The notes under the pieces are model-generated. The model had not been told where the DNA came from. It searched no databases and saw nothing but the letters and a program-made list of their open reading frames with translations. 64,000 nucleotides of DNA from Pseudolabrys sp. (GTDB lineage Bacteria > Pseudomonadota > Alphaproteobacteria > Rhizobiales > Xanthobacteraceae): NCBI GenBank assembly GCA_026125895.1, contig JAHCKG010000011.1, forward strand, positions 1 through 64,000, written 5' to 3'. This document shows, piece after piece, positions 17,280 through 63,690 of the stretch (positions are counted from its first letter, which is position 1; each line of letters opens with the position of its first letter). The translations under genes were made by a program, and so were the position numbers.

Positions 17280-18105
17280 TCGCTTTCTTATCCCTCCCCT
17301 GAAAGGGGAGGGTGGCCCGCCGAAGGCGGGTCGGGTGGGGTCAGCGACGCCGCGAACGCGCTTTCTCCTCTCCCTCAAGAGGAGGCGAATAAGAAGGCAC
17401 GTCCGTCGCTTTCCTGTCGTCCCCGCGAAAGCGGGGACCCATAATCACCGTCCTCTCGATAGCGCGGTGGCTATGGGTCCCGGGTCTCGCTGTCGCTCGC
17501 CCGGGACGAAAGGCCAAGACCCGTCACACCCCTCAGAAAATAGTCCTTGACTATTAGTCCTAGGATCATATAGCCTCACCCCGTCCTGTTCCTACCGAGG
17601 GCGCTCTCATGAGGCGTCATGTCAGCGGGAGCAGAATGCGGTGCCCGCGGGCCCGGGGATTACGCATCCCGGGCGCTCGGGCGGCGCCGGGGCTCCGCCC
17701 GCCGGCAATAAGACCGGCCGCAAGGAGCTTGCTGATGGTGAGCGCTACCCGCGAAAGCGGATCAGCCGCCAGAAGCGCGGCCCGGCGTCGTAACGACACC
17801 GCGATGGAGCGCCGCGGGGCGCAGGCCTTCTCCGATCGCAAGGAGGGGCCGCGCCGCAAGGCGCATGTTTGGGCGCTTCGCGGCGCTCCATTCCCTCGGC
17901 ATGTCCGAGGGGCGGAAGACATGTCCCCGCGAAGGCGGGGGAAAGGCAGGCCACCCCGGGCCTTCGAGAACAGGGGCGCCGGCGCATGCCCGCCGTATTC
18001 CCATGCAATCTGCGGCAGCGCAGCACACTCTTGCTCACGCCCCCGCCGGGCTATAATCACGCAAAGCTAAAGGTTCCGCCCGCGAGGGCCAGAGGAGTTC
18101 CGACC
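17280..18105. repeat. Composite repeat-rich intergenic region
   Basis: About 800 bases without a convincing gene. It holds CCCTCCCCT/AGGGGAGGG at 17292-17312, CCCGCC/GGCGGG at 17316-17330 and TCCCCGC/GCGGGGA at 17420-17437. A larger stem pairs 17434-17450 with 17465-17481 (17 bp, two mismatches), and a further CCCCGC/GCGGGG hairpin lies at 17923-17941. Several short Arg-rich reading frames are open on both strands, as expected by chance at this GC content. The end of the region carries the promoter and AGAGGAG ribosome site of the acyl-CoA dehydrogenase gene. Confidence 0.7.
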
Positions 18106-24686: not shown

Positions 24687-24763
24687 ATCCCCGCGGAAGC
24701 GGGGATCCAGTGCGGCAATCCCGGAGCGCGCGGCAAAGACTGGGTTCCCGCTTCCGCGGGAAC
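24687..24763. repeat. Pair of palindromic repeats between exporter genes
   Basis: ATCCCCGC/GCGGGGAT (24687-24706) and GTTCCCGC/GCGGGAAC (24744-24763) are two members of the CCCCGC palindrome family in head-to-tail symmetry. They separate the ATPase and permease genes of one presumed operon. Confidence 0.8.
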
Positions 24764-49296: not shown

Positions 49297-50505
49297 CTAA
49301 ATCACCTCGCTCGCCCGCTTCAGGCCCAGGATCATCGACGTATTGAGCAGATGCGCGCGCGCCTTGTCGGGATCGGCGGCGACGGCGACCATCTCCTCGA
49401 GGTGCTGGCGCTGAACGGCCGGGTCGCGCTCTTCCATCATCCGCTTGTTGCGGATCGACATCGCCTGCACCTGCTCGATGGTGGCGAAGCGGCGCTGGCG
49501 GGAATAGAGGTCGAGCAGATGGTCGCCTTCGCCGCGCCAGTGCCGGCCGAGCTTGTCGCAGAGATTGACGGCGTCGTGGATGCCGCTGTTGAGGCCGAAG
49601 CCGCCGAGCGGGTTGTTGAGATGCGCGGCGTCGCCGGCGAGCAGCACGCGGCCGGCGCGGAACGAGGCGGCGACGCGCTGGTGCACGCGGTAGGTGCTCT
49701 TGTAGCGGATGTCGTAGGCGTCCGGCTTCGGCAGCACGCGCTGCAGCGCCGCCTCGACGCGCTCGGGCGACAGCAGCACCTCGTCGCTCTCGTCCGGATT
49801 GACCGGGTAGGCGAGGCGCCACAATCCCGGCGGGCCGGCATCGGGGACCTTGAACAACGCGCCGAATTCGACCGGGTCGGCGATGTAGCAGTTATAGGCG
49901 AAGCCATGCTGGCCGAAGTCATAGGGCGTCGACACGACGACAAATAATTCCGGCCAGGTGAAGCCCTCGAAGTCGACGCCGAGGCCCTTGCGCACGACGC
50001 TGCGGCCGCCATCGGCGCCGATCAGCCATGAGCCTTCGAAGCGCCGGTCGCCGGAGGGGCCGGCGGTCGTCACGGTGACTCCATCGGCGTGCTGGGTGAA
50101 CCCGGTGACGGCGTGGCCAAAATGAATCTCGGCGCCGCCCGTCTTTTGCAGCAGGTCGAGCTGGATCGGCGTCAGCCGGTGCTGCTCGAGATGCAGGCGG
50201 TAAGGGTAGGGCGTGACGTCGTGCAGCAGATCGAGATCGAACTCGGCAACGAGATCGCCGGGGCGGTTGCGGATCTGCCAGTGCCGCACCTTGATGCCGC
50301 TCTCGTGCATCCGTTCGGTGATGCCGTAGGGCGCCATCATCTCGAGCGTCGGCGGATGAAACGAGCCGGCGCGCAGGTCGTGGGTGAGACCTTCCTCGGC
50401 CTCGAGCAGCACGACGGGGATGTCCTGCGCGCGCAGCGCCAGCGCGCACATCAGGCCGGTCGGGCCGGCGCCGGCGATGACGACGGGTTTATGTGTGGTC
50501 ATCAT
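49297..50505 (-). CDS. FAD-dependent aromatic-type monooxygenase
   Basis: A 402-aa flavoprotein hydroxylase. The N-terminal FAD motif is VVIAGAGPTGLMCALALRAQ. The NAD(P)H-associated block is GADGGRSVVRKGLGV, and the flavin-sealing block is VLLAGDAAHLNNPLGGFGLNSG. This is the PHBH/MhpA fold that adds a hydroxyl to phenolic substrates. It is the last gene of the presumed hydroxycinnamate cluster, so a hydroxybenzoate or phenylpropanoid product is the likely substrate. It is separated from the next gene by a palindromic repeat. Start at 50505 or 50502. Confidence 0.85.
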   Translation of the reverse strand: MMTTHKPVVIAGAGPTGLMCALALRAQDIPVVLLEAEEGLTHDLRAGSFHPPTLEMMAPYGITERMHESGIKVRHWQIRNRPGDLVAEFDLDLLHDVTPYPYRLHLEQHRLTPIQLDLLQKTGGAEIHFGHAVTGFTQHADGVTVTTAGPSGDRRFEGSWLIGADGGRSVVRKGLGVDFEGFTWPELFVVVSTPYDFGQHGFAYNCYIADPVEFGALFKVPDAGPPGLWRLAYPVNPDESDEVLLSPERVEAALQRVLPKPDAYDIRYKSTYRVHQRVAASFRAGRVLLAGDAAHLNNPLGGFGLNSGIHDAVNLCDKLGRHWRGEGDHLLDLYSRQRRFATIEQVQAMSIRNKRMMEERDPAVQRQHLEEMVAVAADPDKARAHLLNTSMILGLKRASEVI

Positions 50506-50510
50506 TGTTG

Positions 50511-50559
50511 GCGCATGACCTTTTCCGAAAACCGGTTTCCACTTTTCGGGGTCATGCGC
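50511..50559. repeat. GCGCATGACC...GGTCATGCGC interspersed palindrome
   Basis: GCGCATGACC and CCGAAAA on the left pair with TTTTCGG and GGTCATGCGC on the right, around CCGGTTTCCAC. This GCGCATGAcCCCGAAAA-type element is widespread in Hyphomicrobiales as I recall it. It lies between the monooxygenase and amidohydrolase genes of the cluster. Confidence 0.75.
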
Positions 50560-50578
50560 TGCCGGCGCTTCGGACCCT

Positions 50579-51595
50579 TTACTTCACCAGCTTCGTGCCG
50601 GTGATGCGCTCGAGATTGCCGTGCCAGATCGCTTCCTTGGTCGCCTTCGGCAGCTCGACCTCGTCGATGAACTTGATGGCGTCGCGCGTGTACATCGTGC
50701 CCTTCTCCGGATCGAACGGGCAGTCCGAGGCGAACACCACCTTGTCGTGATCGAAGAACGACAGGCCGATATCGATGCCGGCGCGCGAGGAGAAGGTCGC
50801 GGTGTCGGCATAGAACCGGTGCTTGAAGTAATCGAGCGGGCGGTGCTTGAGCTCGCCGAGCAGCTTGCCGAGGTCCTCGCCCGAGGTGCGCGAGCCGAGC
50901 TGATCCCAGCCGGGGCCGATGCGCCCTTCCAGCATCGGCACGATGCCGCCGAAGTGATGGGTGATGATGTTCAGCTTCGGATACTTGTCCATCAGCTTGG
51001 AGAAGACGAGGCGCGCCATGGCGGTTGCGGTCTCGTACGACCAGCCGAAGGCCCACCAGATTTCGTACTTCGACGTCTTCTCGGTCGGGTAATCCGGAAT
51101 GTTGGCGCCGCGCGCCGGATGCAGCCAGATCGGCTTGTTGAGTTTTTCCATCTCGGCGAAGAACGGCTCGAACTTCGGATCGTCGAGCGGCACGCCGGCG
51201 ACATTGGTGTAGATCTGCACGCCGAGCGCGCCCATCTTGATGGCGCGCCGCGCCTCAGTGACGCCAACGTCCGGCGCGCCGAGCGCGCCCTGCGCCACCC
51301 AGCCCGGAAAGTGGGCCGGATCCCTGGCGATGATCTCGGCCAGCTCGTCGTTGATCAGCTTGGCGTATTCCTCGACCTTGGCGCCGTCGCCTTTGCACAG
51401 CACTTCGAGCGGCGGCATGCCGTGCGACAGGATCTGCGCGTAATCGGGGAAGGTATCGACCACCTTCTTGCGGATATCGAGATCGTGGATGCTCGGCACT
51501 TCGCGCATGCGCTTGCCGATATCGGGAAGGCCGCTGTCGATCAGCACCTTGAAGAAACGGCTCGGCAGAAAGTGGGTATAGGCATCGATACGCAT
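50579..51595 (-). CDS. Amidohydrolase of the ACMSD/LigW-like family
   Basis: A 338-aa TIM-barrel protein of the amidohydrolase_2 superfamily (aminocarboxymuconate semialdehyde decarboxylase type). Expected metal-site blocks are IWLHPARGANI, NIITHHFGGIVP and VFASDCPFDPEKGTM. The first HxH motif is altered: MRIDAYTHFLP has Tyr6-Thr-His8 rather than His-x-His. Relatives are decarboxylases or hydratases acting on ring-cleavage or aromatic acid intermediates. Its place in the cluster suggests an aromatic substrate. Start 51595. Confidence 0.85.
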   Translation of the reverse strand: MRIDAYTHFLPSRFFKVLIDSGLPDIGKRMREVPSIHDLDIRKKVVDTFPDYAQILSHGMPPLEVLCKGDGAKVEEYAKLINDELAEIIARDPAHFPGWVAQGALGAPDVGVTEARRAIKMGALGVQIYTNVAGVPLDDPKFEPFFAEMEKLNKPIWLHPARGANIPDYPTEKTSKYEIWWAFGWSYETATAMARLVFSKLMDKYPKLNIITHHFGGIVPMLEGRIGPGWDQLGSRTSGEDLGKLLGELKHRPLDYFKHRFYADTATFSSRAGIDIGLSFFDHDKVVFASDCPFDPEKGTMYTRDAIKFIDEVELPKATKEAIWHGNLERITGTKLVK

Positions 51596-51739
51596 GGCGT
51601 CTTCCCTCGGCCGCGCAGCCGGTTTTCGGATGGCGGAATGTTATTGATGGCTTGGCTCGCGTTTCTACGCGAGGCGGCAAGGCGTGACAACGCTTCGGCG
51701 CGCCGCCGGCCTATGCGCTTGCGGCGTTGGGAGAGCGCC

Positions 51740-52150
51740 TTATTTGAACTTCGCCAATACCGCTTCGGGCACCGGGTGGGATTTGAGCTGCCCACCTTCG
51801 CCCCGCACCGTCCAGACTCGCTTCTCGTTGGCCTCGACGCAGGTCTCGCCCTTCAGCGTGATCTTGTGGCTGACCTCGAAGGAGGTGCGGCCGAAGGTGA
51901 CGGTGCTGGCGATGAGGCAGTCGTCGCCGAACCGCGTCGGCTTGAGGAACCGGGCCTGCGTCTTGAGCAGCGGCCAGCCGGCGAATTCCAGCGTCTTCAG
52001 CATCTCGTATTTGGTGATGCCGAGCGCGGCCTCGAACAGCATTTCGATCGAGTGGTCGAAGAAGCGGAAGTAGTTGGGATAGAAGATGATCCCGGCGGGG
52101 TCGCAGTCGCCCCATTCGATGCGCAGGTTTCGCGTGTTGGTGTAGGCCAT
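51740..52150 (-). CDS. 4-Hydroxybenzoyl-CoA thioesterase-like acyl-CoA thioesterase
   Basis: A 136-aa hotdog-fold protein. The active-site motif EWGDCDPAGIIFYPNYF has the catalytic D17, at the same place as in the Pseudomonas 4-hydroxybenzoyl-CoA thioesterase. LNTR-type and VSHKITLKGETCVE strands fit the fold. It would release an aromatic acid such as 4-hydroxybenzoate or vanillate from its CoA thioester. The methyltransferase gene lies nine bases upstream in the same run. The substrate is inferred from this context. Confidence 0.87.
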   Translation of the reverse strand: MAYTNTRNLRIEWGDCDPAGIIFYPNYFRFFDHSIEMLFEAALGITKYEMLKTLEFAGWPLLKTQARFLKPTRFGDDCLIASTVTFGRTSFEVSHKITLKGETCVEANEKRVWTVRGEGGQLKSHPVPEAVLAKFK

Positions 52151-52159
52151 GGAGGATTC

Positions 52160-52774
52160 CTAGCGGTCTTCGGCGCGCCGCGCCAGCCAGACCGAGCGGC
52201 CGCCGCAATCGGCATCGTTCATCCGCGCATCGACAACGGTAAAGTCATTGGCGGCGAGCAGCGCCCGGTATTCCTCCGGGGCGAGGCTGGCGTGATAGAG
52301 TGGCTCGCCGTGCAGCTCGCCGATGGCTTCGCCGTGGGCCGGCCCGCTGGTGAACATCAGCGGCGCGCCGGGCGAGGCATGCGCCGCGAAGATCGCGAAC
52401 ATGCGGCGCTGCGCGTCAAAGTCGAGATGGAAGAATGAGTCCCATGCCAGGATGCCGCCGAAGCGTCGGCCGAGGTCGAGCGTTCGCATGTCGGCGATGC
52501 GCCAGTCCTGTTCGGGAAAATCGCGCCGGCACAGCGAGATCATCGTCGGCGATGAATCGACGCCGGTGACGGCGCGGCCCTGCGCGATCAGATAGGCCGC
52601 GATCGGTTTGCCGAAACCGCAACCGATATCGAGCACGGTGCCGCCGCCGGGCACCAGCGCCAGGAAGCGGTCGAGCCAGCCTTGCTCGAACAGCCGCGTC
52701 TCCCGGCGCCGGTCGGCGGCCCAGTCATGCGCCTTGCGTTCGTAAAGACCGACGATGTTGTCGGCATCCGACAT
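52160..52774 (-). CDS. Class I SAM-dependent methyltransferase
   Basis: A 204-aa cytosolic protein. The SAM-binding glycine-rich motif I is VLDIGCGFGKPI (about residues 44-55), followed by VTGVDSSPTMISLC and LGRRFGGILAWDSFFHL, as in the UbiE/Trans-aconitate-like methyltransferases. It lies in the tight run between the thioesterase and SDR genes (six bases from the SDR stop). It might methylate a catabolic intermediate or a by-product; nothing in the sequence fixes its target. Confidence 0.84.
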   Translation of the reverse strand: MSDADNIVGLYERKAHDWAADRRRETRLFEQGWLDRFLALVPGGGTVLDIGCGFGKPIAAYLIAQGRAVTGVDSSPTMISLCRRDFPEQDWRIADMRTLDLGRRFGGILAWDSFFHLDFDAQRRMFAIFAAHASPGAPLMFTSGPAHGEAIGELHGEPLYHASLAPEEYRALLAANDFTVVDARMNDADCGGRSVWLARRAEDR

Positions 52775-52780
52775 CTTTTC

Positions 52781-53542
52781 TTAACGGGGCGCCATGCGCA
52801 GCGCGCCGTCGATGCGGATGACCTCGCCGTTGAGATAACCGTTCTCGACGATGTGCACGGCGAGCTTGGCGAATTCCGCCGGTTCGCCCAGCCGCTTGGG
52901 GAAAGGCACCGACGCGCCGAGCGAATCCTGCGCTTCCTGCGGCAGCGCTTTGAGCATCGGCGTACCGAAGATTCCCGGCGCGATGGCGCAGACGCGGATG
53001 CCGAACTGCGCGAATTCGCGCGCCGCCGGCAGGGTCAGCGCCGCGACCGCGCCCTTGGACGACGAATAGGCCGACTGGCCGATCTGGCCCTCGAAGGCCG
53101 CGACCGATGCGGTCGAGATGATGACGCCGCGATCGCCGCCCGGCAGCGGCTCGACGCTCTGCATGTTGGCGGCGACGAGCCGCATCATGTTGAAGGTGCC
53201 GATCAGGTTGATCTTGATGACGCGTTCGAAGTCCTCGAGCGGCATCGGACCATCCTTGCCGACGATGCGCTTGGCCGGGCCGATACCGGCGCAGTTGACC
53301 AGCACGCGCGCCGCGCCGTGCACGGTGGCGGCGGCGTTGATTGCGGCGCTGGCGCCCTTGTCGAGCGTCACGTCGCAGGCGAAGGCGATGCCGCCGATCT
53401 CCTTGGCGACGTCGTTGGCGCCTTTCTCGTTGAGGTCGAACACGGCGACCTTCGCGCCCGCCGTCGCCAGCGCCCGCGCCGTGGCGGCGCCGAGACCCGA
53501 AGCGCCGCCAGTGACGATCGCGGCCTGTCCTTTGATGTCCAT
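52781..53542 (-). CDS. 3-Hydroxyacyl-CoA dehydrogenase-type SDR (HSD10-like)
   Basis: 253 aa from ATG 53542; longer in-frame extension upstream is not supported because a repeat lies there. The SDR cofactor motif is TGGASGLG (residues 11-18). The catalytic residues are S146 (TAS), Y159 and K163 (YSSSK). The whole, including VDL-like FDLNEKG and PGIFGTPML, resembles the type II 3-hydroxyacyl-CoA dehydrogenases (HSD17B10). In this cluster it could oxidise the hydroxyacyl-CoA made by the crotonase before thiolysis. Confidence 0.88.
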   Translation of the reverse strand: MDIKGQAAIVTGGASGLGAATARALATAGAKVAVFDLNEKGANDVAKEIGGIAFACDVTLDKGASAAINAAATVHGAARVLVNCAGIGPAKRIVGKDGPMPLEDFERVIKINLIGTFNMMRLVAANMQSVEPLPGGDRGVIISTASVAAFEGQIGQSAYSSSKGAVAALTLPAAREFAQFGIRVCAIAPGIFGTPMLKALPQEAQDSLGASVPFPKRLGEPAEFAKLAVHIVENGYLNGEVIRIDGALRMAPR

Positions 53543-53576
53543 TGATCGAAATCCTTCTATTACTTTTACTCCGCTC

Positions 53577-53634
53577 ACCCCCGCGAAAGCGGGGGTCCAG
53601 AGGCCAAGAACTGGATCCCCGCTTTCGCGGGGAT
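53577..53634. repeat. Two CCCCGC palindromes inside the aromatic cluster
   Basis: ACCCCCGC/GCGGGGGT (53577-53596) and ATCCCCGC/GCGGGGAT (53615-53634) separate the SDR and thiolase genes. Same family as 17420, 21736 and 24687. Confidence 0.85.
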
Positions 53635-53649
53635 GAGCGGATAAATACT

Positions 53650-54891
53650 CTAAGCCGCCTTGGCCTCGGTATTCTCGATCAGCAGCGCGATGCCTTGGCC
53701 GCCGCCGATGCAGGCGGAAGAGATACCATAACGCTGGCCGCTGCGCTTGAGTTCGCGCGCCAGCGTCAAAGTGAGGCGGATACCGGTGGCGCCCAGCGGG
53801 TGGCCGATGGCGATGGCGCCGCCATTGACGTTGAGCTTGTCTTCGTCGAGGCCGAGCGCGCGGGCGCAGGCCATGACCTGCGCGCCGAAAGCCTCGTTGA
53901 TCTCGAAGCGGCCGATGTCCTCGAGCTTGAGGCCGGCGCGTTCGACCACGGCCTTGATCGCCGGCACCGGTCCGATGCCCATGATTTCCGGCGGCACGCC
54001 GACCGCTGCGCTGGCGATGATGCGCGCCAGCGGCTTCTTGCCGTTCTTCTCGGCATAGGCTTTCGACGACACCAGCACGGCCGCCGCGCCATCGACGATG
54101 GCGGAGGAGTTGCCGCCGGTCTGCACGCCGCCAAAGGCCGGCTTGATCTTCGCAAGCTGCTCGACGGTCGAATGCCGCACATGTGTGTCGGCCGTGACGT
54201 CTTCCTTCACGCGGATGCCGCGCGCGTTCATGCCGTCGGCCTCGAATTTCTCGGTCGTCACCGGCGCGATCTCGCCGGCGCGGAAGTCGGCGGCCTTCAT
54301 GGCGCGCTCGAACGAGCGCGAGGCATAGGCATCCACTTCGGCGCGGGTGATCTGATATTGCTTGGCGAGGTTCTCCGCGGTGTCGCCCATGGTGCAGTTG
54401 ACGCCCGGATCCATCAGGGCTTCCCACAGGAAGTCCTTGAATTCGACCTGGCCCATGCGAAAGCCGCCGCGGCTGGTATAGGACGCCACCGGATTGCGGC
54501 TCATCGACTCGGCGCCGACGCACAGCGCGAGATCGGCGCGGCCGAGCGAGGTACTGTCGGAGGCCTGCGCAATCACCTCGATGCCGGTGCCGCAGACGCG
54601 CTGCACCAGATGCGCCGGCACTTCCTGCGGCACGCCGGCATAGAGCCCGACATGGCGCGGCAGCATGTAGGCGTCGAAACTCGCTTGGGCCATGCTGCCG
54701 GCGATCACGGTGCCGACGTCCTTCGGCGACACGCCGGACTTCTTGATCGCCTCGCGCGCCGCCTTGATGCCGAGGTCGATGGGCGAGATCGGCGCCAGCG
54801 CGCCGTTGTAATCGACGAAGGGCGTGCGCGCGCCGTCGATCAGCCAGGCGTCCTCGAAGGTGGCGCCGATGCCGGGGATCTTGTCAGTCAC
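53650..54891 (-). CDS. Acetyl-CoA acyltransferase (thiolase)
   Basis: A 413-aa thiolase with a short N-terminal extension. The nucleophile is C100 in LVQRVCGTGIEV. The His block is INEAFGAQVMACARALG, the GGAIAIGHPLGATG glycine motif follows, and the second catalytic Cys is in SSACIGGGQGIALL. All three thiolase signatures are intact. In context it would cleave a 3-keto-acyl-CoA (aromatic 3-ketopropanoyl-CoA) to acetyl-CoA and a shorter aryl-CoA. It is separated from the first ligase gene by 12 bases. Confidence 0.93.
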   Translation of the reverse strand: MTDKIPGIGATFEDAWLIDGARTPFVDYNGALAPISPIDLGIKAAREAIKKSGVSPKDVGTVIAGSMAQASFDAYMLPRHVGLYAGVPQEVPAHLVQRVCGTGIEVIAQASDSTSLGRADLALCVGAESMSRNPVASYTSRGGFRMGQVEFKDFLWEALMDPGVNCTMGDTAENLAKQYQITRAEVDAYASRSFERAMKAADFRAGEIAPVTTEKFEADGMNARGIRVKEDVTADTHVRHSTVEQLAKIKPAFGGVQTGGNSSAIVDGAAAVLVSSKAYAEKNGKKPLARIIASAAVGVPPEIMGIGPVPAIKAVVERAGLKLEDIGRFEINEAFGAQVMACARALGLDEDKLNVNGGAIAIGHPLGATGIRLTLTLARELKRSGQRYGISSACIGGGQGIALLIENTEAKAA

Positions 54892-54903
54892 GGTTGCTCT
54901 CCA

Positions 54904-56754
54904 TCACAAGCGGATCACGCGCGGCGAGACTTCGTCGGCGTACAGCTCCTCGACCAGCGCGGCGCGGTTCTTGAGCACGGTGCGCTGGTTGATCGAGCCC
55001 TTGTCGGTCATCTCGCCTTTGTCCATCGACGGCGGCTCGGTCATCAGCATGATGCGCTGGACGCGGTTCGACGAACCGGTCGAGGCCGCGGCCATCCTGG
55101 CGAGCAGCGACGTGAAGTGCTGCTGCACGTCGTAGTGCTGCACCACCTGCGCGGCCGGCGTATCCGGCGCGCGATGGAGGAGCGAGCGGCAGGCCTCGAC
55201 ATCGGGAAACACGAGGGCCGCGAGATAATCGCGGTCGAGTCCGGCGAAGACGACGTCGCGCACATAAGGCTTGAAGGCGTCGATGAACTGCGCGCGCAAG
55301 GGCCCGACATTGACCCAGGTGCCGGACGACAGCTTGAAATCCTCGGCAATGCGGCCGTCGAACAGCAGGCCTTGCTCCGGATGATCGGGGTCGGCGAACT
55401 TGAAGGTGTCGCCCAGCTTGTAGAAGCCTTCGTCGTCGAACGCCTTGCCGGTGTATTCCGGCTGTCGCCAGTAGCCCGGCGTGATGTTGGGGCCGCGGAC
55501 GCGCGCTTCGAGCTTGCCCTCGGAGGGCACCAGCTTGAGTTCGAGCCCTGCGGCGGGCAGGCCCATGTTGGTGGAGTTCGGATGATAGAAGGTGCGCGCC
55601 AGCGCGCAGGGCGCGGTCTCGGTGGCGCCGAAGCCGGTGAGGAACTGCACGCGTTCGCCGCAGGTCTCGACCGCCAGCGCATTGATCTCGTCGAACACAT
55701 GCTGCGCCAGACCCGCGCCGGCAAACCACAGCACCTTCACCTTGGAGAAGAACTTGCGTCGCAACTCGGCGTCGGTGCGCAGGTGCGGCAGCAGCGCCTC
55801 GTAGCCTTTCGGCACGGTGAAGTACCAGGTCGAGGCGATGTCGCGCAGGTTGCGCACCGTCTCCTCGATGGCGCCGGGCAGCGGCTTGCCTTCGTCGATG
55901 TAGAAAGTGCCGCCGTTGTAGAGCACCAGGCCGACGTCGTGATTGCCGCCGGCGGTGTGGTGCCACGGCGCCCAGTCGAGAATCACAGGCGGCTCGTCCT
56001 GGAAGAAGGCGAGCGCCTGGCGCAGCATCACCTGATTGGCGCACCACATGCGCTGCGTGTTGATCACGCATTTCGGCACGCCAGTCGAGCCGGAGGTGAA
56101 CAGGAATTTGGCGATGGTGTCGGGGCCGACCTTGTCGTTGGCCGCATCGACGGCGGCGGTCGGCTCGGCGGAGAGATCGGAGAAGAGTGTCGTGCGGCCC
56201 TCGATCGGATTGCGCGTGACGACGACCGGCACATCCTCCGGCACGATCGTCTCGATGGCGCGGGCGAAGGCCTTGCCGTCGGCCGCAAAGACGAGCCCCG
56301 GCGTGATCAGGTCGAAGATCGATTTGAGCCGCGCGAAGTCCTGGCTGACCAGCGAATAGGCCGGCGAGATTGGCGCGTAGGCGACGCCGATATAGACGGC
56401 GGCGAGCCCGAGCATCGCATGCTCGAGATCGTTGCCGGACAGGATGACGATCGGCCGCTCGGCCGACAGATTGTATTTGAGCAGCGCCGTGCCGATGCGG
56501 CGGGCGTGATCGAGCGCCTGCGCATAGGTGATGGTGCGCCAGCTCTCGCCGTCACGCTGCGCCATGAAGACGCGATCCGGCGCGTGCTGCGCCCAGTATT
56601 CGAGGCGCTCGGTCAGTTTCGTCGGATAGGGCCCGAGCGGCTCCGGCGAGCGCAGCAGCAGCGCGCCATCGGGACGTGTCTCGATATCGACGTCCTGCGG
56701 CCCGAGTCGCACCGGGCGGAAGGGCGCTTGTTGGAGCGGCGATGCGATACTCAT
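54904..56754 (-). CDS. Feruloyl-CoA synthase-like acyl-CoA ligase, copy 1
   Basis: A 616-aa adenylate-forming ligase. The ATP-binding P-loop is FTSGSTGVPKCV, followed by WAPWHHTAGGNHD. The A8 hinge and C-terminal domain carry a catalytic Lys in TDKGSINQR. The opening (RLGPQDVDIETRPDGALLL) is the pattern I know from feruloyl-CoA synthases of Bradyrhizobium-like bacteria. It activates a hydroxycinnamate to its CoA thioester using ATP. The VPKCV variant (Cys for the usual Gly) is atypical. It is followed at a repeat by a second copy. Confidence 0.85.
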   Translation of the reverse strand: MSIASPLQQAPFRPVRLGPQDVDIETRPDGALLLRSPEPLGPYPTKLTERLEYWAQHAPDRVFMAQRDGESWRTITYAQALDHARRIGTALLKYNLSAERPIVILSGNDLEHAMLGLAAVYIGVAYAPISPAYSLVSQDFARLKSIFDLITPGLVFAADGKAFARAIETIVPEDVPVVVTRNPIEGRTTLFSDLSAEPTAAVDAANDKVGPDTIAKFLFTSGSTGVPKCVINTQRMWCANQVMLRQALAFFQDEPPVILDWAPWHHTAGGNHDVGLVLYNGGTFYIDEGKPLPGAIEETVRNLRDIASTWYFTVPKGYEALLPHLRTDAELRRKFFSKVKVLWFAGAGLAQHVFDEINALAVETCGERVQFLTGFGATETAPCALARTFYHPNSTNMGLPAAGLELKLVPSEGKLEARVRGPNITPGYWRQPEYTGKAFDDEGFYKLGDTFKFADPDHPEQGLLFDGRIAEDFKLSSGTWVNVGPLRAQFIDAFKPYVRDVVFAGLDRDYLAALVFPDVEACRSLLHRAPDTPAAQVVQHYDVQQHFTSLLARMAAASTGSSNRVQRIMLMTEPPSMDKGEMTDKGSINQRTVLKNRAALVEELYADEVSPRVIRL

Positions 56755-56772
56755 GGCGCTATCCTGTGTCCG

Positions 56773-56874
56773 TCATCCTGAGGTGGCCGCCGAAGGCGGC
56801 CCTGGGAGGACGACGGCCCATGATCCACGAGCCGTGCATCCTTCGAGGCTCGCTGCGCTCGCGCCTCAGGATGA
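56773..56874. repeat. Long TCATCCTGAGG palindromic repeat between the two ligase genes
   Basis: TCATCCTGAGG (56773-56783) pairs with CCTCAGGATGA (56864-56874), enclosing an inner GGCCGCC/GGCGGCC hairpin (56785-56801). It is the largest palindromic element in the window and lies in the 148-base gap between the tandem ligases. Confidence 0.85.
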
Positions 56875-56902
56875 TGAATTTTCTGTTCGATGTTACCCAT
56901 AT

Positions 56903-58774
56903 TCAACTGTCGCTGCGGATCACGCCCGGCGATGGCGTGTCGGCGTAGAGTTCATTGACCAGCGCGGCGCGGCTCGCCAGCACCGCGCGCTGGTTGATCG
57001 AGCCCTTGTCGGTGGCTTCGCCCTTGTCGAGCGACGGCGGCTCGGCCATCAGGATCAGGCGCTCGACGCGGGTCGAGGATCCCTTGGCCTGCGCCGCCAG
57101 CGTGAACAGCCGCTCGGCGAACAGCAGGCGCACCGTCGGCGCGGCGATGATGTCGGCCGCCGTCGCCTCGGGGCCGAGGCCGGCGAGCTTGCGGCAGGCT
57201 TCGATATCGGGAAACACCAGCGCGCCGATGAAATCGCGATCGGCCCCGGCGAGTACGACGTCGCGCACATAAGGCGCGAAGTGGTCGATGAAGCGGCCGC
57301 GCAATGGCCCGACGCTGACCCATGTCCCGGTCGAGAGCTTGTAGTCCTCGGCAATGCGGCCGTCGAAGATCAGGCCCTTGTTCGGATCGTCCGGGTCCGC
57401 GAATTTCAGCGCATCGCCGATCCGGTAGAAACCTTCGTCGTCGAAGGCGGCCTGGGTGTGGTTGTCCTGGCGCCAGTAGCCGGGCGTGATGTGCGGGCCG
57501 CGCAGCCGCGCTTCGAGCTTGCCGGCGTTCGGCACCAGCTTGAGTTCGACGCCGGCGCAGGGCAGGCCGATATTGCCGGGGCGGCCGAAATCGAAGGTGC
57601 AGGCCAGCGCCGCCGGCGCGGTCTCGGTCGAGCCGAGCGAGGACAGGAAAATGACGCGCTCGCCGGTCGTCTCGACCGCGATCTCATTCATCTCGTCATA
57701 GGTCGCCTGGTTCAGCCCGGCGCCGGCATAGAACAGGACGTCCAGACGGCTGAAGAAGTTGCGGCGCAAGGTGTCGTCGGCGCGGAGGTGCGGGATCAGC
57801 GCCTCGTAGCCTTTCGGCACGTTGAAATAGATGGTCGGGGCGATGTCGCGCAGGTTGCGCGCCGTTTTCGGCACGCCGGGCGGCGTCGGATTGCCGTCAT
57901 CGATGTAGAGCGAGCCGCCATTGACCAGGACCAGGTTGAAATTGTGGTTGGAGCCGAAAGTGTGGCTCCACGGCAGCCAGTCGACCAGTACGGGAGGCTC
58001 GTCCTTCACGAACGCCAAACTCCCGTGCAGCATGGCCTGGTTCGACAGCAGCATGCGGTGGGTGTTGATGACGCCCTTCGGCGTGCCGGTGGATCCTGAG
58101 GTGAACAGGAATTTGGCGATGGTGTCGGGGCCGACCGCCGCGCGCGCCGCCGCGACGCCGTTTTTGTCCGCGGCGCCAACCAAGTCGGCGAACACCGTCG
58201 TCGGCCGGTCGCCGAGCGGATTGCACGTGACGACCAGTTCGATGTCGTCCGAGATGGTTGCATAGAGCGCCTTGCCGAAGGCCAGGCCGTCGGCGGCGAA
58301 CACCATGCCAGGCGTGAGTAATTCGACGATCATGCGCAATTTGCCGAAGTCGCTCGACATCAGCGAATAGGCCGGCGACACCGGCGCGTAGGGAATGCCG
58401 GCATACATGCTCGCCAACGCCAGCAGCGCATGCTCGATGTCGTTGCCGGAGAGCACGACGATGGGCCGCTCCGGCGACAGTCCGCGCCGCAACAACGCAG
58501 CGGCGATACGGCGCACCTTCTCGAGCACTTCGGCGTAGGTCAGTTTGCGCCAGTGTCCGTCGGCATCTCGCTGCGCCAGATAGACGCGATCGGGGGCGAC
58601 GCGGGCCCAATGCTCCAGCGGTTCGGCGATGCTGTCGTGATAGATCCCGAGCGGCTGTGCACTGCGCAGATAGATCGTGCCGTCCGGCCGCCGATCGACG
58701 ACGGCGTCGAGCGCGCCGAGCTTGACGCTGCGCAGCGGCGCATCTGGAGCGGCGAGGGGCCGGTTCACCTGCAT
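56903..58774 (-). CDS. Feruloyl-CoA synthase-like acyl-CoA ligase, copy 2
   Basis: A 623-aa paralogue of the ligase at 54904-56754, roughly 60 percent identical by eye. The P-loop is FTSGSTGTPKGVINTHRM, with the standard KGV, and the C-terminal Lys is again in TDKGSINQR. WLPWSHTFGSNHNFNLVL, YVRDVVLAGADRDFIGALVFP and the rest of the C-terminal domain are intact. The two ligases may act on different hydroxycinnamates (for example coumarate versus ferulate). It is 10 bases from the crotonase gene. Confidence 0.86.
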   Translation of the reverse strand: MQVNRPLAAPDAPLRSVKLGALDAVVDRRPDGTIYLRSAQPLGIYHDSIAEPLEHWARVAPDRVYLAQRDADGHWRKLTYAEVLEKVRRIAAALLRRGLSPERPIVVLSGNDIEHALLALASMYAGIPYAPVSPAYSLMSSDFGKLRMIVELLTPGMVFAADGLAFGKALYATISDDIELVVTCNPLGDRPTTVFADLVGAADKNGVAAARAAVGPDTIAKFLFTSGSTGTPKGVINTHRMLLSNQAMLHGSLAFVKDEPPVLVDWLPWSHTFGSNHNFNLVLVNGGSLYIDDGNPTPPGVPKTARNLRDIAPTIYFNVPKGYEALIPHLRADDTLRRNFFSRLDVLFYAGAGLNQATYDEMNEIAVETTGERVIFLSSLGSTETAPAALACTFDFGRPGNIGLPCAGVELKLVPNAGKLEARLRGPHITPGYWRQDNHTQAAFDDEGFYRIGDALKFADPDDPNKGLIFDGRIAEDYKLSTGTWVSVGPLRGRFIDHFAPYVRDVVLAGADRDFIGALVFPDIEACRKLAGLGPEATAADIIAAPTVRLLFAERLFTLAAQAKGSSTRVERLILMAEPPSLDKGEATDKGSINQRAVLASRAALVNELYADTPSPGVIRSDS

Positions 58775-58784
58775 CGCTTGTCCT

Positions 58785-59585
58785 CTAGTCCGGCCGCTTC
58801 ACCTTGCTCGCCTTGCCTTCGAGGAAGGCGTTGAGCCGGTTCTTGGCTTCCGGATCGGCTTGCGCGATCGACGAAATCAGCGACTCCATGGCATAGCCCG
58901 TGGCCGGCGCCGCTTCTGCGATGCGCGGCAGCGCATGGGTGATGGCGAAATTGGTGAGATGTGTGTTCTGCGCGATGCGTTCGGCCAACTGCACCGCCTT
59001 CCCCATCCCTTCGCCCGGCTCGACGAGATAGGTGGACAGGCCCATGGTCTGACCGTCCTCGGCCGAGTAGGTGCGCCCGGTCAGCATCATGTCCATCATG
59101 CGCGCAACGCCGATGAGGCGCGGCACGCGCACCGAGCCGCCGCCGCCGACATAGATGCCGCGGCTGCCTTCGGGCAGGCCGTAATAGACCGAGCGTTCGG
59201 CGACGCGGATATGCGCCGACGCGGCAAGTTCGAGGCCGCCGCCGATCACCGCGCCATGCAGCGCGGCGACGACCGGCACCTTGCCGAACTGGATCTTCTC
59301 GAAGGCGCGATGCCATAGCGAGGAATGCGCGATGCCCTCGCGGATGTCGCGCTCCTGCAGTTCCGATAAATCGAGGCCGGCGCAGAAGTGCTCGCCTTCG
59401 CCGCCGATGACGACGGCGCGGACATCCTCTGGCAGCCGCGTGAAGAACGTGTCGATACCGATGACGGTGTCGTCGTCGATCGCGTTGCGCTTGTGCGGGC
59501 GATTGAGCTTGAGGATGGCAACGGGACCGTGCTGCTCGGCGGCAAGCGACGGCGGCAATCCGGCAAACGGCTCTCTCTTGCTCAC
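58785..59585 (-). CDS. Crotonase-family enoyl-CoA hydratase/lyase
   Basis: A 266-aa crotonase. The first oxyanion-hole block is HFCAGLDL (67-74) and the second is GAVIGGGLELAAS with E119. The second acidic residue is E139 in GLPEGSRG, and GGGGSVRVPRLIG follows. Both catalytic glutamates of enoyl-CoA hydratase are therefore kept. It would hydrate a hydroxycinnamoyl-CoA. A retro-aldol lyase activity making an aldehyde is possible too, but no vanillin dehydrogenase gene is in the window. Start 59585, 73 bases from the binding-protein stop. Confidence 0.87.
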   Translation of the reverse strand: MSKREPFAGLPPSLAAEQHGPVAILKLNRPHKRNAIDDDTVIGIDTFFTRLPEDVRAVVIGGEGEHFCAGLDLSELQERDIREGIAHSSLWHRAFEKIQFGKVPVVAALHGAVIGGGLELAASAHIRVAERSVYYGLPEGSRGIYVGGGGSVRVPRLIGVARMMDMMLTGRTYSAEDGQTMGLSTYLVEPGEGMGKAVQLAERIAQNTHLTNFAITHALPRIAEAAPATGYAMESLISSIAQADPEAKNRLNAFLEGKASKVKRPD

Positions 59586-59658
59586 GCGATGGCTCCTTGA
59601 AAGTCAGGATGCCGCCGCCCTGAGGCGACGGCATTTGAGGGTGTAGCGTCGGCCGCGA

Positions 59659-60867
59659 TCAGTTCGACTTCACCAGAGGGCAACCGCCTTCGCTGAGCGG
59701 GCGAAACGCCTTGTCGGCCGGGATCGTACCGGCGATCTTGAAGACGTCCCACTCGCTCTTCGATTCCGCCGGTGACTTCACCTGGAGCAGATAGAGCGGA
59801 TGGATGGCGCGGCCGTCCGCGCGGATTTCGACCTTGCCGTAGACCGGATCATCCGATGGCGTCGCCTTCATGGCATCGACCACGGCCTTGCCGTCCGTCG
59901 GCGAGCCGACTTTGTCAACGGCCTTGAGATAGGCGAGGGTGGCCGAATAGACGCCGGCCTGCATGTGATTGGGATACATCTTCTTAGCGTGGCGAGCGGC
60001 ATAGCGCTTGGCGAAGTCGCGCGTGCCGTCGTTTTCGTCCCAGTACCAGGCATTGATCGCCTGAAGGCCCTGCGCGGTGCCGAGCCCGATCGCCGGCACG
60101 CTCTGCAAGTCGAAGATCAGCGCGACCAGCTTCTGCTTCTCGGTGACCTTGAAGTCGGCGGCCTGCTTGATGGTGTTGACGGTGTCACCACCGGCATTGG
60201 CGAGCAGTATCACGTCGGCCTTCGAAGCCTGCGCCTGCAAGAGCGCCGAGGAGAAGTCGTTAGTGCCGAGCGGCAGCCGCACGGCGCCGAGGACCTTGCC
60301 GCCCGATGCGTTGATCTCGTCGGTCGCCTGCTTCTCGAGGTCATGACCGAAGGCGTAGTCGGCGGTGATGAAGAAGAAGGTCTTCGCCCCTTGCGCCAGC
60401 ACGCCCTTGGCGGTGCCGTGGCCGAACGCCCAGGTGTCGTAAGTCCAGTGCACGAAAGTCGGCGAACACTTGGCGCCGGTGAGTGCCGCCGTGCCGGCGC
60501 CGGAGCCGATCACCACCTTGTTCTTTTCCTTGCCGATATCGGAGACGGCAAGCGCGACCGCGGAGTTCGGCAGATCGATCACCATGTCGACGCCTTCGGC
60601 ATCGAACCAGCGGCGGGCGATGGCGGCCCCGACATCTGGCTTGTTCTGGTGATCGGCTGAAATCACTTCGATTTTTCGCTTGGACGTCTTGTTGAAGTCC
60701 TCGACCGCCATCTGCGCCGCGAGCACCGAGCCCGGACCCTGGAAGTCCGAATAGACGCTCGACATGTCGTTCATGACGCCGATCCGGAGCGTGCCGTTCT
60801 GTTCGGCCAAAGCCGGTGTGGCGGCGAGCGCCGCGAGCAAGGCGGCGAGCTTGATCGCTTTCTGCAT
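59659..60867 (-). CDS. Branched-chain amino acid-type ABC substrate-binding protein
   Basis: 402 aa from ATG 60867. A signal peptide (KLAALLAALAATPALA) precedes the periplasmic binding protein type I fold (LRIGVMNDMSSVYSDFQGPG; AVEDFNKTSKRKIEVISADH). The LivK-like domain is used in some bacteria for aromatic acids such as hydroxycinnamates. It is the first gene of the minus-strand cluster, and no matching permease or ATPase is in the window, so the rest of the importer must lie elsewhere. The candidate operator at 60958-60980 lies 91 bases upstream. Confidence 0.9.
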   Translation of the reverse strand: MQKAIKLAALLAALAATPALAEQNGTLRIGVMNDMSSVYSDFQGPGSVLAAQMAVEDFNKTSKRKIEVISADHQNKPDVGAAIARRWFDAEGVDMVIDLPNSAVALAVSDIGKEKNKVVIGSGAGTAALTGAKCSPTFVHWTYDTWAFGHGTAKGVLAQGAKTFFFITADYAFGHDLEKQATDEINASGGKVLGAVRLPLGTNDFSSALLQAQASKADVILLANAGGDTVNTIKQAADFKVTEKQKLVALIFDLQSVPAIGLGTAQGLQAINAWYWDENDGTRDFAKRYAARHAKKMYPNHMQAGVYSATLAYLKAVDKVGSPTDGKAVVDAMKATPSDDPVYGKVEIRADGRAIHPLYLLQVKSPAESKSEWDVFKIAGTIPADKAFRPLSEGGCPLVKSN

Positions 60868-61082: not shown

Positions 61083-61844
61083 ATGAACCTGAGCGATCTA
61101 AAACCCTGGCGCACGGGCGCCGTCATGGCCCTGCTGACGCTGCTTTCATGCCGGGCCGGGGCCGCAGCCGAGGCTGCCGGCGATATGGTCATTCCCCCGG
61201 CGACCTATCCCGCTCTAATGAGCCACGCGCCGACGCCCGAGGCCTTTGTCCCGGAAGGATGGCGCATGGAAAGCCAGGTCTCCGGCGATCTGAATGCAGA
61301 CCGCCAAGCCGATATCGTGCTGGTCCTGCGGCAGAATGCGCCCGGCAATATCGTGGACGCCCGCGGGCGGGGTGGTCCGGAGCGTTTCGACACCAATCCC
61401 CGCATTCTGGCCGTGGCAGTGGCTGCCGCCGGCGGCGGCTACGATCTCGTCGCCGAGAACCACACCCTGATCGGGCGAACCACCGAGCCTTCGCAGCAGG
61501 ACCCGCTCGACCCCGACGGCGTTCAGGCCGGCGGCATCGAGATCGTGCGCGGCACGCTCAGGGTGACGCTCGGCTATTTCGGCGGCGCCATGGGGCACCG
61601 GACTTTGACGTTCCGGCTGCGGAACCAGCAACTCCTGCTGATCGGCTATGACAGCATCCACGTCGAGCGTTCGCGCGGCAGCCTCGACCAGGTGAGCATC
61701 AACTACCTGACCCGGCGGATGAAGCGCACCACCGGCACCATTTCGAGCGACGCCGAGACGGTGACGCATTCCGCGGTACAGTCGCGGCGCCTGCTGGCAA
61801 TCGACGAGGTGGGCGACGGTTTGGCCTTCGAACGGGCCAGATAA
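61083..61844 (+). CDS. Secreted protein of unknown function
   Basis: A 253-aa protein. A signal peptide (AVMALLTLLSCRAGAAAEA) is followed by SGDLNADRQADIVLVLRQN, which resembles the calcium-binding loop of FG-GAP/VCBS-type repeats (D-x-N-x-D-x-x-D). The rest (GGIEIVRGTLRVTLGYFGGAMGHRTLTFRLRNQQLLLIGY) suggests a beta-rich periplasmic fold. I do not recognise a family with certainty. It starts from the same divergent region as the catabolic cluster and may be co-regulated. The next plus-strand gene is pcaF. Confidence 0.7.
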   Translation: MNLSDLKPWRTGAVMALLTLLSCRAGAAAEAAGDMVIPPATYPALMSHAPTPEAFVPEGWRMESQVSGDLNADRQADIVLVLRQNAPGNIVDARGRGGPERFDTNPRILAVAVAAAGGGYDLVAENHTLIGRTTEPSQQDPLDPDGVQAGGIEIVRGTLRVTLGYFGGAMGHRTLTFRLRNQQLLLIGYDSIHVERSRGSLDQVSINYLTRRMKRTTGTISSDAETVTHSAVQSRRLLAIDEVGDGLAFERAR

Positions 61845-62431: not shown

Positions 62432-62469
62432 ATGACGGCGGTGCAAGGGGCGGTGCAAGGAAAGTTGTG

Positions 62470-63690
62470 ATGACCGACAAGATCCGTGACGTTTTCATCT
62501 GCGACGCCGTTCGCACGCCGATCGGCCGCTACGGCGGCTCGCTGGCCAAGGTGCGTACCGACGATCTTGCCGCCGTGCCGCTGAAGGCGCTGATGGCGCG
62601 CAATCCGAAAGCCGATTGGGAAAAGCTCGAGGAGGTCGTCTTCGGCTGCGCCAATCAGGCGGGCGAAGACAACCGCAACGTCGCGCGCATGGCTGCCTTG
62701 CTGTCGGGCCTGCCCGTTTCGGTGCCGGGCATTACCGTGAACCGGCTGTGCGCCTCGGGCCTCAATGCGGTGGGCGACGTCGCCCGAGCCATTCGTTCTG
62801 GCGAAATGGAATTCGCCATTGCCGGCGGCGTCGAGTCGATGACCCGCGCGCCCTTCGTACAGGGCAAGGCGACCGAAGCCTTCTCGCGTTCGGCGGAGAT
62901 CTATGACACCACCATCGGCTGGCGTTTCATCAATCCGCTGATGAAGGCGCAGTACGGCGTCGATTCCATGCCGGAGACCGGCGAGAACGTCGCCGAGGAT
63001 TATCAGGTGTCGCGCGCCGATCAGGACCTGTTCGCGCTGCGCTCGCAGCAGAAGGCGGGCAAGGCGATCGCCGCCGGCTTCTTTGCGCAGGAGATCGTTG
63101 CGGTCGAGATCGCCGGCCGCAAGGGCGAAGTGGTGAAGGTGGACAAGGACGAGCATCCGCGTCCCGACACCACGCTCGAGCAGCTTACCAAGTTGAAAAC
63201 GCCGTTCCGCAATCCGGGCACCGTGACCGCCGGCAACGCCTCCGGCGTCAACGACGGCGCCGCGGCGCTGATCCTTGCCTCGGAAGCCGCGGTGAAGGCA
63301 CATGGTTTGACGCCGCGCGCCCGCGTGCTCGGCATGGCGTCGGCTGCTGTCCCACCGCGCGTCATGGGCATCGGCCCCGTGCCCTCGACGCAGAAGCTGC
63401 TGGCGCGGCTCGGCCACAAGATCACGCAGTATGACGTGATCGAATTGAACGAAGCCTTTGCTTCGCAATCGCTCGCCGTCATGCGGCAACTCGGTCTGCC
63501 CGACGACGCCGAACACGTTAATCCCAATGGCGGCGCCATCGCGTTGGGCCACCCGCTCGGCATGTCCGGTGCGCGTCTGGCATTGACAGCGACCCATGCG
63601 CTGGAACAAAGGTCTGGCAAGCTGGCGCTCGCGACGATGTGCGTCGGTGTCGGTCAGGGCGTCTCGCTGGCGCTCGAACGGATCGCCTGA
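62470..63690 (+). CDS. pcaF: 3-Oxoadipyl-CoA thiolase (beta-ketoadipyl-CoA thiolase)
   Basis: 406 aa from ATG 62470 (a GTG three bases earlier is also in frame). The nucleophile is C94 in NRLCASGLNA. CDAVRTPIGRYGGSL, DNRNVARMAALLSGLP and GGAIALGHPLGMSGARLALT are blocks of the PcaF/PaaJ-type thiolases. The enzyme splits 3-oxoadipyl-CoA into succinyl-CoA and acetyl-CoA, the last step of the beta-ketoadipate pathway. pcaH follows 20 bases downstream, which supports the pca identity. Confidence 0.93.
   Translation: MTDKIRDVFICDAVRTPIGRYGGSLAKVRTDDLAAVPLKALMARNPKADWEKLEEVVFGCANQAGEDNRNVARMAALLSGLPVSVPGITVNRLCASGLNAVGDVARAIRSGEMEFAIAGGVESMTRAPFVQGKATEAFSRSAEIYDTTIGWRFINPLMKAQYGVDSMPETGENVAEDYQVSRADQDLFALRSQQKAGKAIAAGFFAQEIVAVEIAGRKGEVVKVDKDEHPRPDTTLEQLTKLKTPFRNPGTVTAGNASGVNDGAAALILASEAAVKAHGLTPRARVLGMASAAVPPRVMGIGPVPSTQKLLARLGHKITQYDVIELNEAFASQSLAVMRQLGLPDDAEHVNPNGGAIALGHPLGMSGARLALTATHALEQRSGKLALATMCVGVGQGVSLALERIA

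Follow-up and report, generated by a model that had tools for sequence, protein, structure and literature searches.

A Pseudolabrys gene cluster predicted to act in beta-oxidative deacetylation of p-coumarate and similar 4-hydroxycinnamates

Coenzyme A (CoA)-dependent routes that shorten the side chain of hydroxycinnamates have been described from Rhodococcus jostii RHA1, in which the cou genes act in the beta-oxidative deacetylation of 4-hydroxycinnamates to the aromatic acid and the pathway ends in the amidohydrolase CouO (PMC4737184), and from Agrobacterium fabrum, whose SpG8-1b ferulate pathway (Atu1415-Atu1422) proceeds through a ligase, a hydratase, a dehydrogenase and a cleavage step (PMC7797058); these and the papers below are cited for excerpts of their text. 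The same order of reactions can be read from a gene cluster on a 64,000-nucleotide stretch of the genome of a soil bacterium, Pseudolabrys sp. (assembly GCA_026125895.1, contig JAHCKG010000011.1, positions 1 to 64,000; hereafter ‘the window’). We consider it probable, at roughly 0.7, that the core of this cluster is an operon by which p-coumarate and other 4-hydroxycinnamates like it undergo CoA-dependent beta-oxidative deacetylation. A pathway of this kind is already known from the Agrobacterium fabrum and Rhodococcus cou systems; the Pseudolabrys system is a variant that has a thiolase and a thioesterase.

The Pseudomonas route through hydroxycinnamoyl-CoA hydratase-lyase (HCHL) starts from the same CoA thioesters but uses another crotonase family (NF006588), with a serine at the first catalytic place. 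DmdD of Ruegeria pomeroyi is a close relative of the window's crotonase and retains both of its glutamates; its substrate, however, is methylthioacryloyl-CoA, of which it hydrolyses the thioester (PMC3660561), and its partner genes are different. PMC3610893 and PMC7997838 describe the breakdown of p-coumarate in Rhodopseudomonas palustris as non-beta-oxidative, and PMC10458429 describes it as beta-oxidative.

The locus and its predicted pathway

Ten minus-strand open frames, spanning 49297–60867, make up the cluster. In transcription order they encode a substrate-binding protein (SBP), a crotonase (ECH), two acyl-CoA ligases (LIG1 and LIG2), a thiolase (KT), a short-chain dehydrogenase/reductase (SDR), a methyltransferase (MT), a thioesterase (TE), an amidohydrolase (AHS) and a monooxygenase (FMO). 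An initial annotation of the window had described these ten same-strand genes in 11.6 kb as a complete beta-oxidation set. The ten genes are confirmed at these coordinates, and Pfam and NCBIfam searches place all of their products in the enzyme or binding classes that it gave; of the set itself, a unit of ligase, hydratase, dehydrogenase, thiolase and thioesterase is kept in relatives, whereas MT, AHS and FMO are not conserved parts of it. The gaps from SBP to FMO measure 73, 10, 148, 12, 107, 6, 9, 144 and 73 bases; four of the nine (not five, as first counted) are 12 bases or less. Third-codon-position G+C is 0.83–0.90 in nine of the ten frames and falls to 0.66 only in that of the SDR, because this frame is over-long, with a likely start at 53542. 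The host genome (4.5 Mb in 50 contigs, the window lying on contig C3) is 82.3% complete with 5.2% contamination, and the closest named relatives are Pseudolabrys.

ECH (58785–59585, on the minus strand as are all ten) belongs to the PRK08150/DmdD/CouA clade of crotonases (NF006013, 390 bits against a cut-off of 232) and carries Glu119 and Glu139. Both ligases are of the PRK12582, feruloyl-CoA-synthase type (NF009232, cut-off 777 bits; LIG1, 56903–58774, 803 bits; LIG2, 54904–56754, 793 bits), and these predicted hydroxycinnamoyl-CoA ligases are the only two of 24 matches in the genome to exceed the cut-off. KT (53650–54891; TIGR01930, 386 bits, cut-off 240.6) is a 3-ketoacyl-CoA thiolase in which both active-site cysteines and the GHP motif are intact. 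The SDR (52781–53542; PF00106, 158 bits) is 3-hydroxyacyl-CoA dehydrogenase-like, has the Ser-Tyr-Lys residues, and is 58% identical to its homolog in an Agrobacterium-type locus of Peteryoungia. TE (51740–52150; PF13279, 34 bits; nearest solved relatives 5wh9 and 1bvq) is a hot-dog thioesterase of the 4-hydroxybenzoyl-CoA type and has both the DCDPAGIIFYPNY motif and the Asp17 that were initially annotated; the aspartate, which we take to be catalytic in this type, lies within a DCDPAGI motif. The residues named here for the thiolase, SDR and thioesterase are the catalytic residues of their families, and the glutamate pair of the crotonase is described as catalytic in PMC3660561. The two chain-cleaving enzymes, thiolase and thioesterase, are thus both present beside a candidate dehydrogenase. 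Gene classes and catalytic residues are direct observations; each reaction and substrate proposed below, and the co-transcription of the genes, is predicted from sequence.

SBP (59659–60867; Peripla_BP_6, PF13458, 342 bits; best solved relative 3i09), a predicted periplasmic protein, likely serves to take up the acid; the ten genes include none for a permease. A ligase would convert the acid to its cinnamoyl-CoA, the double bond of which would be hydrated by ECH. The SDR would then oxidise the 3-hydroxyl, the thiolase would release acetyl-CoA and leave 4-hydroxybenzoyl-CoA, and the thioesterase would free 4-hydroxybenzoate. PobA, encoded on another contig, would turn this product into protocatechuate, which would enter the pathway of the neighboring pcaHG and pcaF genes. 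LIG1 and LIG2 probably act on different acids, with MT, AHS and FMO as accessory proteins.

The genome encodes one true PobA (687 bits, cut-off 538.7). The gene for the downstream 3-oxoadipyl-CoA thiolase, pcaF (62467–63690, plus strand; TIGR02430, 702 bits, cut-off 597), lies beside the cluster on the opposite strand and is followed by pcaHG (pcaH, 369.5 bits; pcaG, 251 bits), which cross the window end. Many Bradyrhizobium loci (e.g. L055) and R. palustris also encode PobA no more than 8 kb from the crotonase unit. PobA, the pca genes and this linkage in relatives together argue for 4-hydroxybenzoate as the product, and hence for p-coumarate as the likeliest substrate. The pca genes are adjacent as initially annotated, and the genome holds the PobA needed for the product to feed them; the range of substrates may be less broad than the ‘hydroxycinnamates’ then named, since no VanA was found (no VanA_C match in the host genome, at 82% completeness; a LigM-type demethylase was not sought genome-wide) and ferulate would need a demethylase.

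Conservation of the core, the ligase pair and the accessory genes

The locus was compared with 80 related loci, those kept of 157 encoding a relative, and with a wider set of 101 crotonase-centred loci made up of the window, those 80, three from plasmids, one from R. palustris and 16 hand-chosen from 41 matched genomes. Some contigs among the 80 end early. Bradyrhizobium is over-sampled in the wider set, in which partner genes were counted within 8 kb of the crotonase and 16 of the 101 stretches are shorter than 16 kb, so that partner genes beyond their ends may have been missed. Among the 80 related loci, a ligase is present in 78, TE in 69, the SDR in 66 and KT in 31; PcaF occurs in 25 and a homolog of SBP in 15, one of which is just 26% identical. 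The comparison of gene order with relatives that the initial annotation had proposed shows directly that the order of the core is kept; its conservation is therefore more than chance.

LIG1 and LIG2 are 60.6% identical. Tandem ligase pairs occur in 14 of the 101 loci, the window included, and the two copies differ at fixed positions: copy 2 has PKC and APWHHTAGGNH in every pair, and copy 1 has PKG or PKA in place of PKC (0 of 14) and LPWSHTFG[SG]NH in all 14. Trees were built on thinned rows (66 ligases, from which that of L170 was dropped for an in-frame stop, and 63 crotonases including HCHL and DmdD). In the ligase tree copy 1 belongs to a starred set of 20 rows that includes 11 single-copy ligases, and copy 2 to a starred set of 14 rows that includes three; the single-copy ligases of L029, L031, L032 and L035 carry PKG, not PKC. 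The ‘duplicated ligase’ of the initial annotation is therefore no fresh duplication: the tree rules out a recent event, and together with the signatures it indicates two old paralog lineages. The likeliest explanation of these differences is that the pair is kept for different substrates.

MT (52160–52774; PF13649), a class I S-adenosylmethionine-dependent methyltransferase, has a counterpart in 11 of the 80 related loci, and AHS (50579–51595; PF04909, Amidohydro_2) and FMO (49297–50505; PF01494) in four each. This distribution marks AHS and FMO as additions close to the genus of the window, and MT as optional. FMO, a flavin adenine dinucleotide-dependent aromatic monooxygenase, had been counted as a pathway member, an assignment that we withdraw: besides its rarity it is not PobA (TIGR02360, 32 bits, cut-off 538.7) and resembles PnpA and HspB (6ain, PnpA, 247 bits). 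AHS was likewise rejected as a CouO, having no blastp match at E 1e-3 or E 1 to a group of amidohydrolases of about 290 residues that we label ‘CouO-like’; AHS and this group share the family PF04909, and one CouO-like protein is matched at 29% identity over 86 residues by an AHS homolog from a plasmid. The neighbors of the plasmid AHS homologs (pcaGH, aldehyde dehydrogenase or transporter genes) have no common theme, and those of FMO homologs gave no assignment. The N-terminal motif of AHS is DAYTH, with DAFNH in two plasmid homologs and DAYAH in 3ij6; its tyrosine sits where we presume a metal-binding residue to lie in related enzymes.

No regulator, such as a MarR repressor responsive to hydroxycinnamoyl-CoA (CouR/HcaR), is encoded among the ten genes; of the nearby frames, 61083–61844 matched no Pfam family and others were not scanned. 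Eight of nine frames picked beyond the window also matched no Pfam family, and a scan for promoters and terminators gave signals no more frequent than in shuffled sequence. A palindromic repeat formed by CCCGCGAAAGCGGGGATCCAG with its inverse lies at 53580–53631, between the thiolase and SDR genes; it recurs at 17422, 21732 and 24690–24760, for six matches in the window with up to three mismatches (0.02 expected). The gap between LIG1 and LIG2 contains an inverted pair of CCTCAGGATGA (56773–56874; two matches in the window, 0.03 expected).

Alternative ends of the pathway

The Agrobacterium-type gene set was read in Peteryoungia, against which ECH is 50%, LIG1 49% and the SDR 58% identical. 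A locus of this type (L164, from a genome taken as Rhizobiaceae) stands in for that of A. fabrum as a close relative, and its ligase, crotonase and SDR are homologs of those in the window. It encodes an SDR, a ligase, a divergently oriented crotonase, a further frame, a GntR regulator, the demethylase LigM (655 bits, cut-off 580), an Amidohydro_2 protein and a MarR regulator, in an order that agrees with that of Atu1415-1422 in PMC7797058. Its GntR regulator matches Atu1419 (PDB 6Z74, PMC7797058) at 473 bits over 241 residues, and its crotonase, as in the window, is of the PRK08150 family (393 bits). L164 and the window differ at the cleavage step. L164 has a CouO-like amidohydrolase, LigM and the MarR and GntR regulators, and neither a thiolase nor a thioesterase is matched within 8 kb; the window has a thiolase and a thioesterase, and two ligases. 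The Amidohydro_2 protein (L164:3402–4277) stands at the gene position of Atu1421, which PMC7797058 calls a beta-keto-thiolase, the word ‘amidohydrolase’ being absent from the text of that paper. Given its position in this relative, Atu1421 seems to correspond to an amidohydrolase.

The RHA1 cou pathway, which ends in CouO where the window has a thiolase and thioesterase, was compared through a Gordonia jinhuaensis locus (L036) that stands in for it. The CouO-like protein of L036 has a GTD aspartate at residue 257, which we take to be the number of a CouO metal ligand. In this locus and in that of Bradyrhizobium macuxiense (L041), the crotonase is accompanied by a CouO-like protein and a different 3-hydroxyacyl-CoA dehydrogenase-like frame, an arrangement in which the oxidation step may have been swapped as well.

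Of the 101 loci, 74 have KT and/or TE, 18 have a CouO-like amidohydrolase, nine have neither and none has both, as would be expected of alternative pathway ends. The crotonase tree requires at least four changes between these states. The host genome has just two matches to CouO-like proteins, one partial (131 bits, 37% identity) and one weaker. In contrast, all ten other genomes searched (four of an R. palustris group and six of a Bradyrhizobium-like group) encode a CouO-like protein at 74–80% identity and 511–541 bits. Both of these groups, in which the unit has no thiolase, keep their CouO-like protein elsewhere, whereas the thiolase-bearing window genome has only the partial match. In the three of the ten in which the surroundings were read (R. 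palustris and two genomes of the other group) the CouO-like genes were located apart from the crotonase unit (L216:7406–8275, L217:7416–8300 and L220:7764–8648), with no match to the crotonase, PRK12582 ligase or thioesterase beside them.

The crotonase reaction and R. palustris CouA

The homolog of ECH that is nearest among those with an experimentally assigned role is CouA of R. palustris. Among 391 genomes, the gene part of the rpa1789 (couP) primer given in PMC3610893 has one exact match, in a genome of the window's family, and three with one mismatch. The genes at the exact match are, in this order, those for a crotonase (identical to the 3hin stretch at 252 of 253 residues), a ligase, a thioesterase and CouP, which agrees with RPA1786-1789. 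For rpa1782 the corresponding primer part has no letter-for-letter match there, but the frame of a TRAP-binding protein specifies its seven residues with two silent differences, and the genome is therefore R. palustris or very near it. From these matches we identify R. palustris CouA as PDB 3HIN. The literature searched does not make this link: ‘3HIN’ and ‘enoyl-CoA hydratase’ occur together only in the DmdD paper (PMC3660561), where 3HIN is described as an R. palustris enoyl-CoA hydratase.

The R. palustris cou locus resembles the window in its crotonase (61% identical), ligase (54%) and thioesterase (44%), which are in the same order. It differs in having no SDR or thiolase match within the 19.9 kb stretch, in the TRAP genes and pobA nearby, and in being described as a non-beta-oxidative, lyase route (PMC3610893, PMC7997838). 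The R. palustris group has SDRs 58–59% identical to that of the window and thiolases at no more than 44%; in R. palustris both are encoded away from the cou locus. A second R. palustris locus (L218:8153–11917) encodes an SDR 61% like that of Bradyrhizobium, a crotonase-like frame and a ligase 46% like LIG1. Further frames there resemble acyl-CoA dehydrogenases by eye, and the locus may serve saturated phenylpropanoids.

Among solved proteins 3hin (335 bits) is nearest to ECH, followed by DmdD (225 bits), with the next scoring 124 bits. Both glutamates are kept in all 100 aligned crotonases (the 101 loci less L035, whose matched stretch is interrupted by an in-frame stop), and HCHL (2j5i) has a serine at the first. 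Against the HCHL model NF006588 (PRK09120) ECH scores 65.5 bits, far under the cut-off of 276; none of 22 matches in the genome exceeds that value, and an HCHL-type lyase was rejected for the genome sequence analysed.

The initial annotation proposed a route free of aldehyde intermediates, and its statement that the cluster lacks an aldehyde dehydrogenase holds for all ten genes by Pfam scan. (Such a gene was matched, with two query proteins, within 8 kb of the crotonase in four of the 101 loci, the window not among them.) The alternative is that the crotonase both hydrates and cleaves cinnamoyl-CoA to an aldehyde and acetyl-CoA, that this aldehyde is converted to the acid by an unlinked aldehyde dehydrogenase, and that the SDR, thiolase and thioesterase serve other acyl-CoAs. 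It draws on the 61% identity of ECH to the protein at the place of CouA, on the want of an SDR or thiolase match at the R. palustris locus, and on papers which, citing Hirakawa 2012, have CouA yield hydroxybenzaldehydes and CouAB convert ferulate to vanillin (PMC7260809, PMC7997838). Arabidopsis plants carrying couA, moreover, have altered lignin that the authors liken to that of HCHL plants (PMC7260809). The absence of an over-threshold HCHL in the genome is an observation that favors the non-aldehyde route, as do the low HCHL score and first glutamate of ECH; HCHL itself is just 24% identical to the R. palustris enzyme, and the homologous A. fabrum hydratase is described as acting ahead of a dehydrogenase (PMC7797058). 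In the couA plants, alkali-released phenolics were mostly unchanged, contrary to expectation, except for p-coumaric and ferulic acids (PMC7260809), and the kinetic model of PMC7997838 was recast without an aldehyde pool for accuracy, which its authors attribute to rapid turnover or channelling. We regard these last two results as hints, not proof, of a hydratase. On balance a lyase in the window appears unlikely, although the aldehyde formation described for CouA speaks against this part of the initial annotation.

Beta-oxidation might instead act mainly on cinnamate, caffeate, or methoxylated or phenylpropanoid relatives rather than on p-coumarate, the two ligases serving two classes of acid. 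This explanation, which overlaps with the one we prefer, finds some footing in the fixed differences between the ligase motifs and in the absence of the CouP entries 4JB0 and 4JB2 from the 16 PDB sequences that match SBP. We find it possible but doubtful, given that PobA and the pca genes point to a 4-hydroxyphenyl product, that PobA lies near the crotonase unit in Bradyrhizobium and R. palustris, and that no VanA was found. It is very improbable that AHS, FMO and MT are essential steps, with AHS for example as a CouO-type deacetylase: they share the strand, and AHS and FMO occur together in the window and in four related loci, but among the 80 loci AHS and FMO were not found in 76 nor MT in 69 (some contigs ending early), and AHS has no blastp match to CouO-like proteins. 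Least probable of all is a DmdD-like hydration and thioester hydrolysis of a non-aromatic, acrylyl-type CoA. DmdD entries rank after 3hin among the nearest solved relatives of ECH, and DmdD also hydrolyses thioesters (PMC3660561); the ten genes, however, include no acyl-CoA dehydrogenase by Pfam, and the partners of ECH are PRK12582 ligases, a 4-hydroxybenzoyl-CoA-type thioesterase and pca genes. DmdD function was dropped as a principal explanation for lack of its partner genes.

Several observations count against beta-oxidative deacetylation by the Pseudolabrys core. The strongest is the description of CouA as aldehyde-forming, which PMC12366328 also adopts (the knock-down of RPA1786 reported there caused little or no loss of growth). 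TE scores weakly, at 34 bits with PF13279 and far under the cut-offs of NCBIfam thioesterase models, and no thiolase of at least 55% identity lies near the crotonase in 49 of the 80 related loci, some of whose contigs end early. An independent-pairs test of the exclusion between KT/TE and CouO-like proteins, with five supported pairs of which at most two are informative, was not significant. Absences from the host genome are soft because it is 82% complete and 5% contaminated.

Of the two bacterial beta-oxidative hydroxycinnamate routes that are backed by genetics in the papers searched, that of R. jostii is stated to end in an amidohydrolase and that of A. fabrum, from the comparison made here, appears to; the Pseudolabrys operon would be a compact version that uses a thiolase and thioesterase. 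The wider interest of the operon is in what it implies for CouA, a question made most interesting by the retention of both hydratase glutamates throughout a clade found beside beta-oxidation genes. As a tentative proposal, to which we give somewhat less than even odds, CouA and the clade of the window enzyme may be beta-oxidative hydratases rather than aldehyde-forming lyases, with a single ligase-hydratase front end that is completed, interchangeably, either by a thiolase and thioesterase or by a CouO-type amidohydrolase. The comparison calls into question the R. palustris mechanism as described, and the contradiction between PMC3610893 and PMC7997838 on one side and PMC10458429 on the other is now testable. 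The activity of CouA matters for lignin-to-aromatics engineering, in which the formation of aldehydes may be either toxic or wanted.

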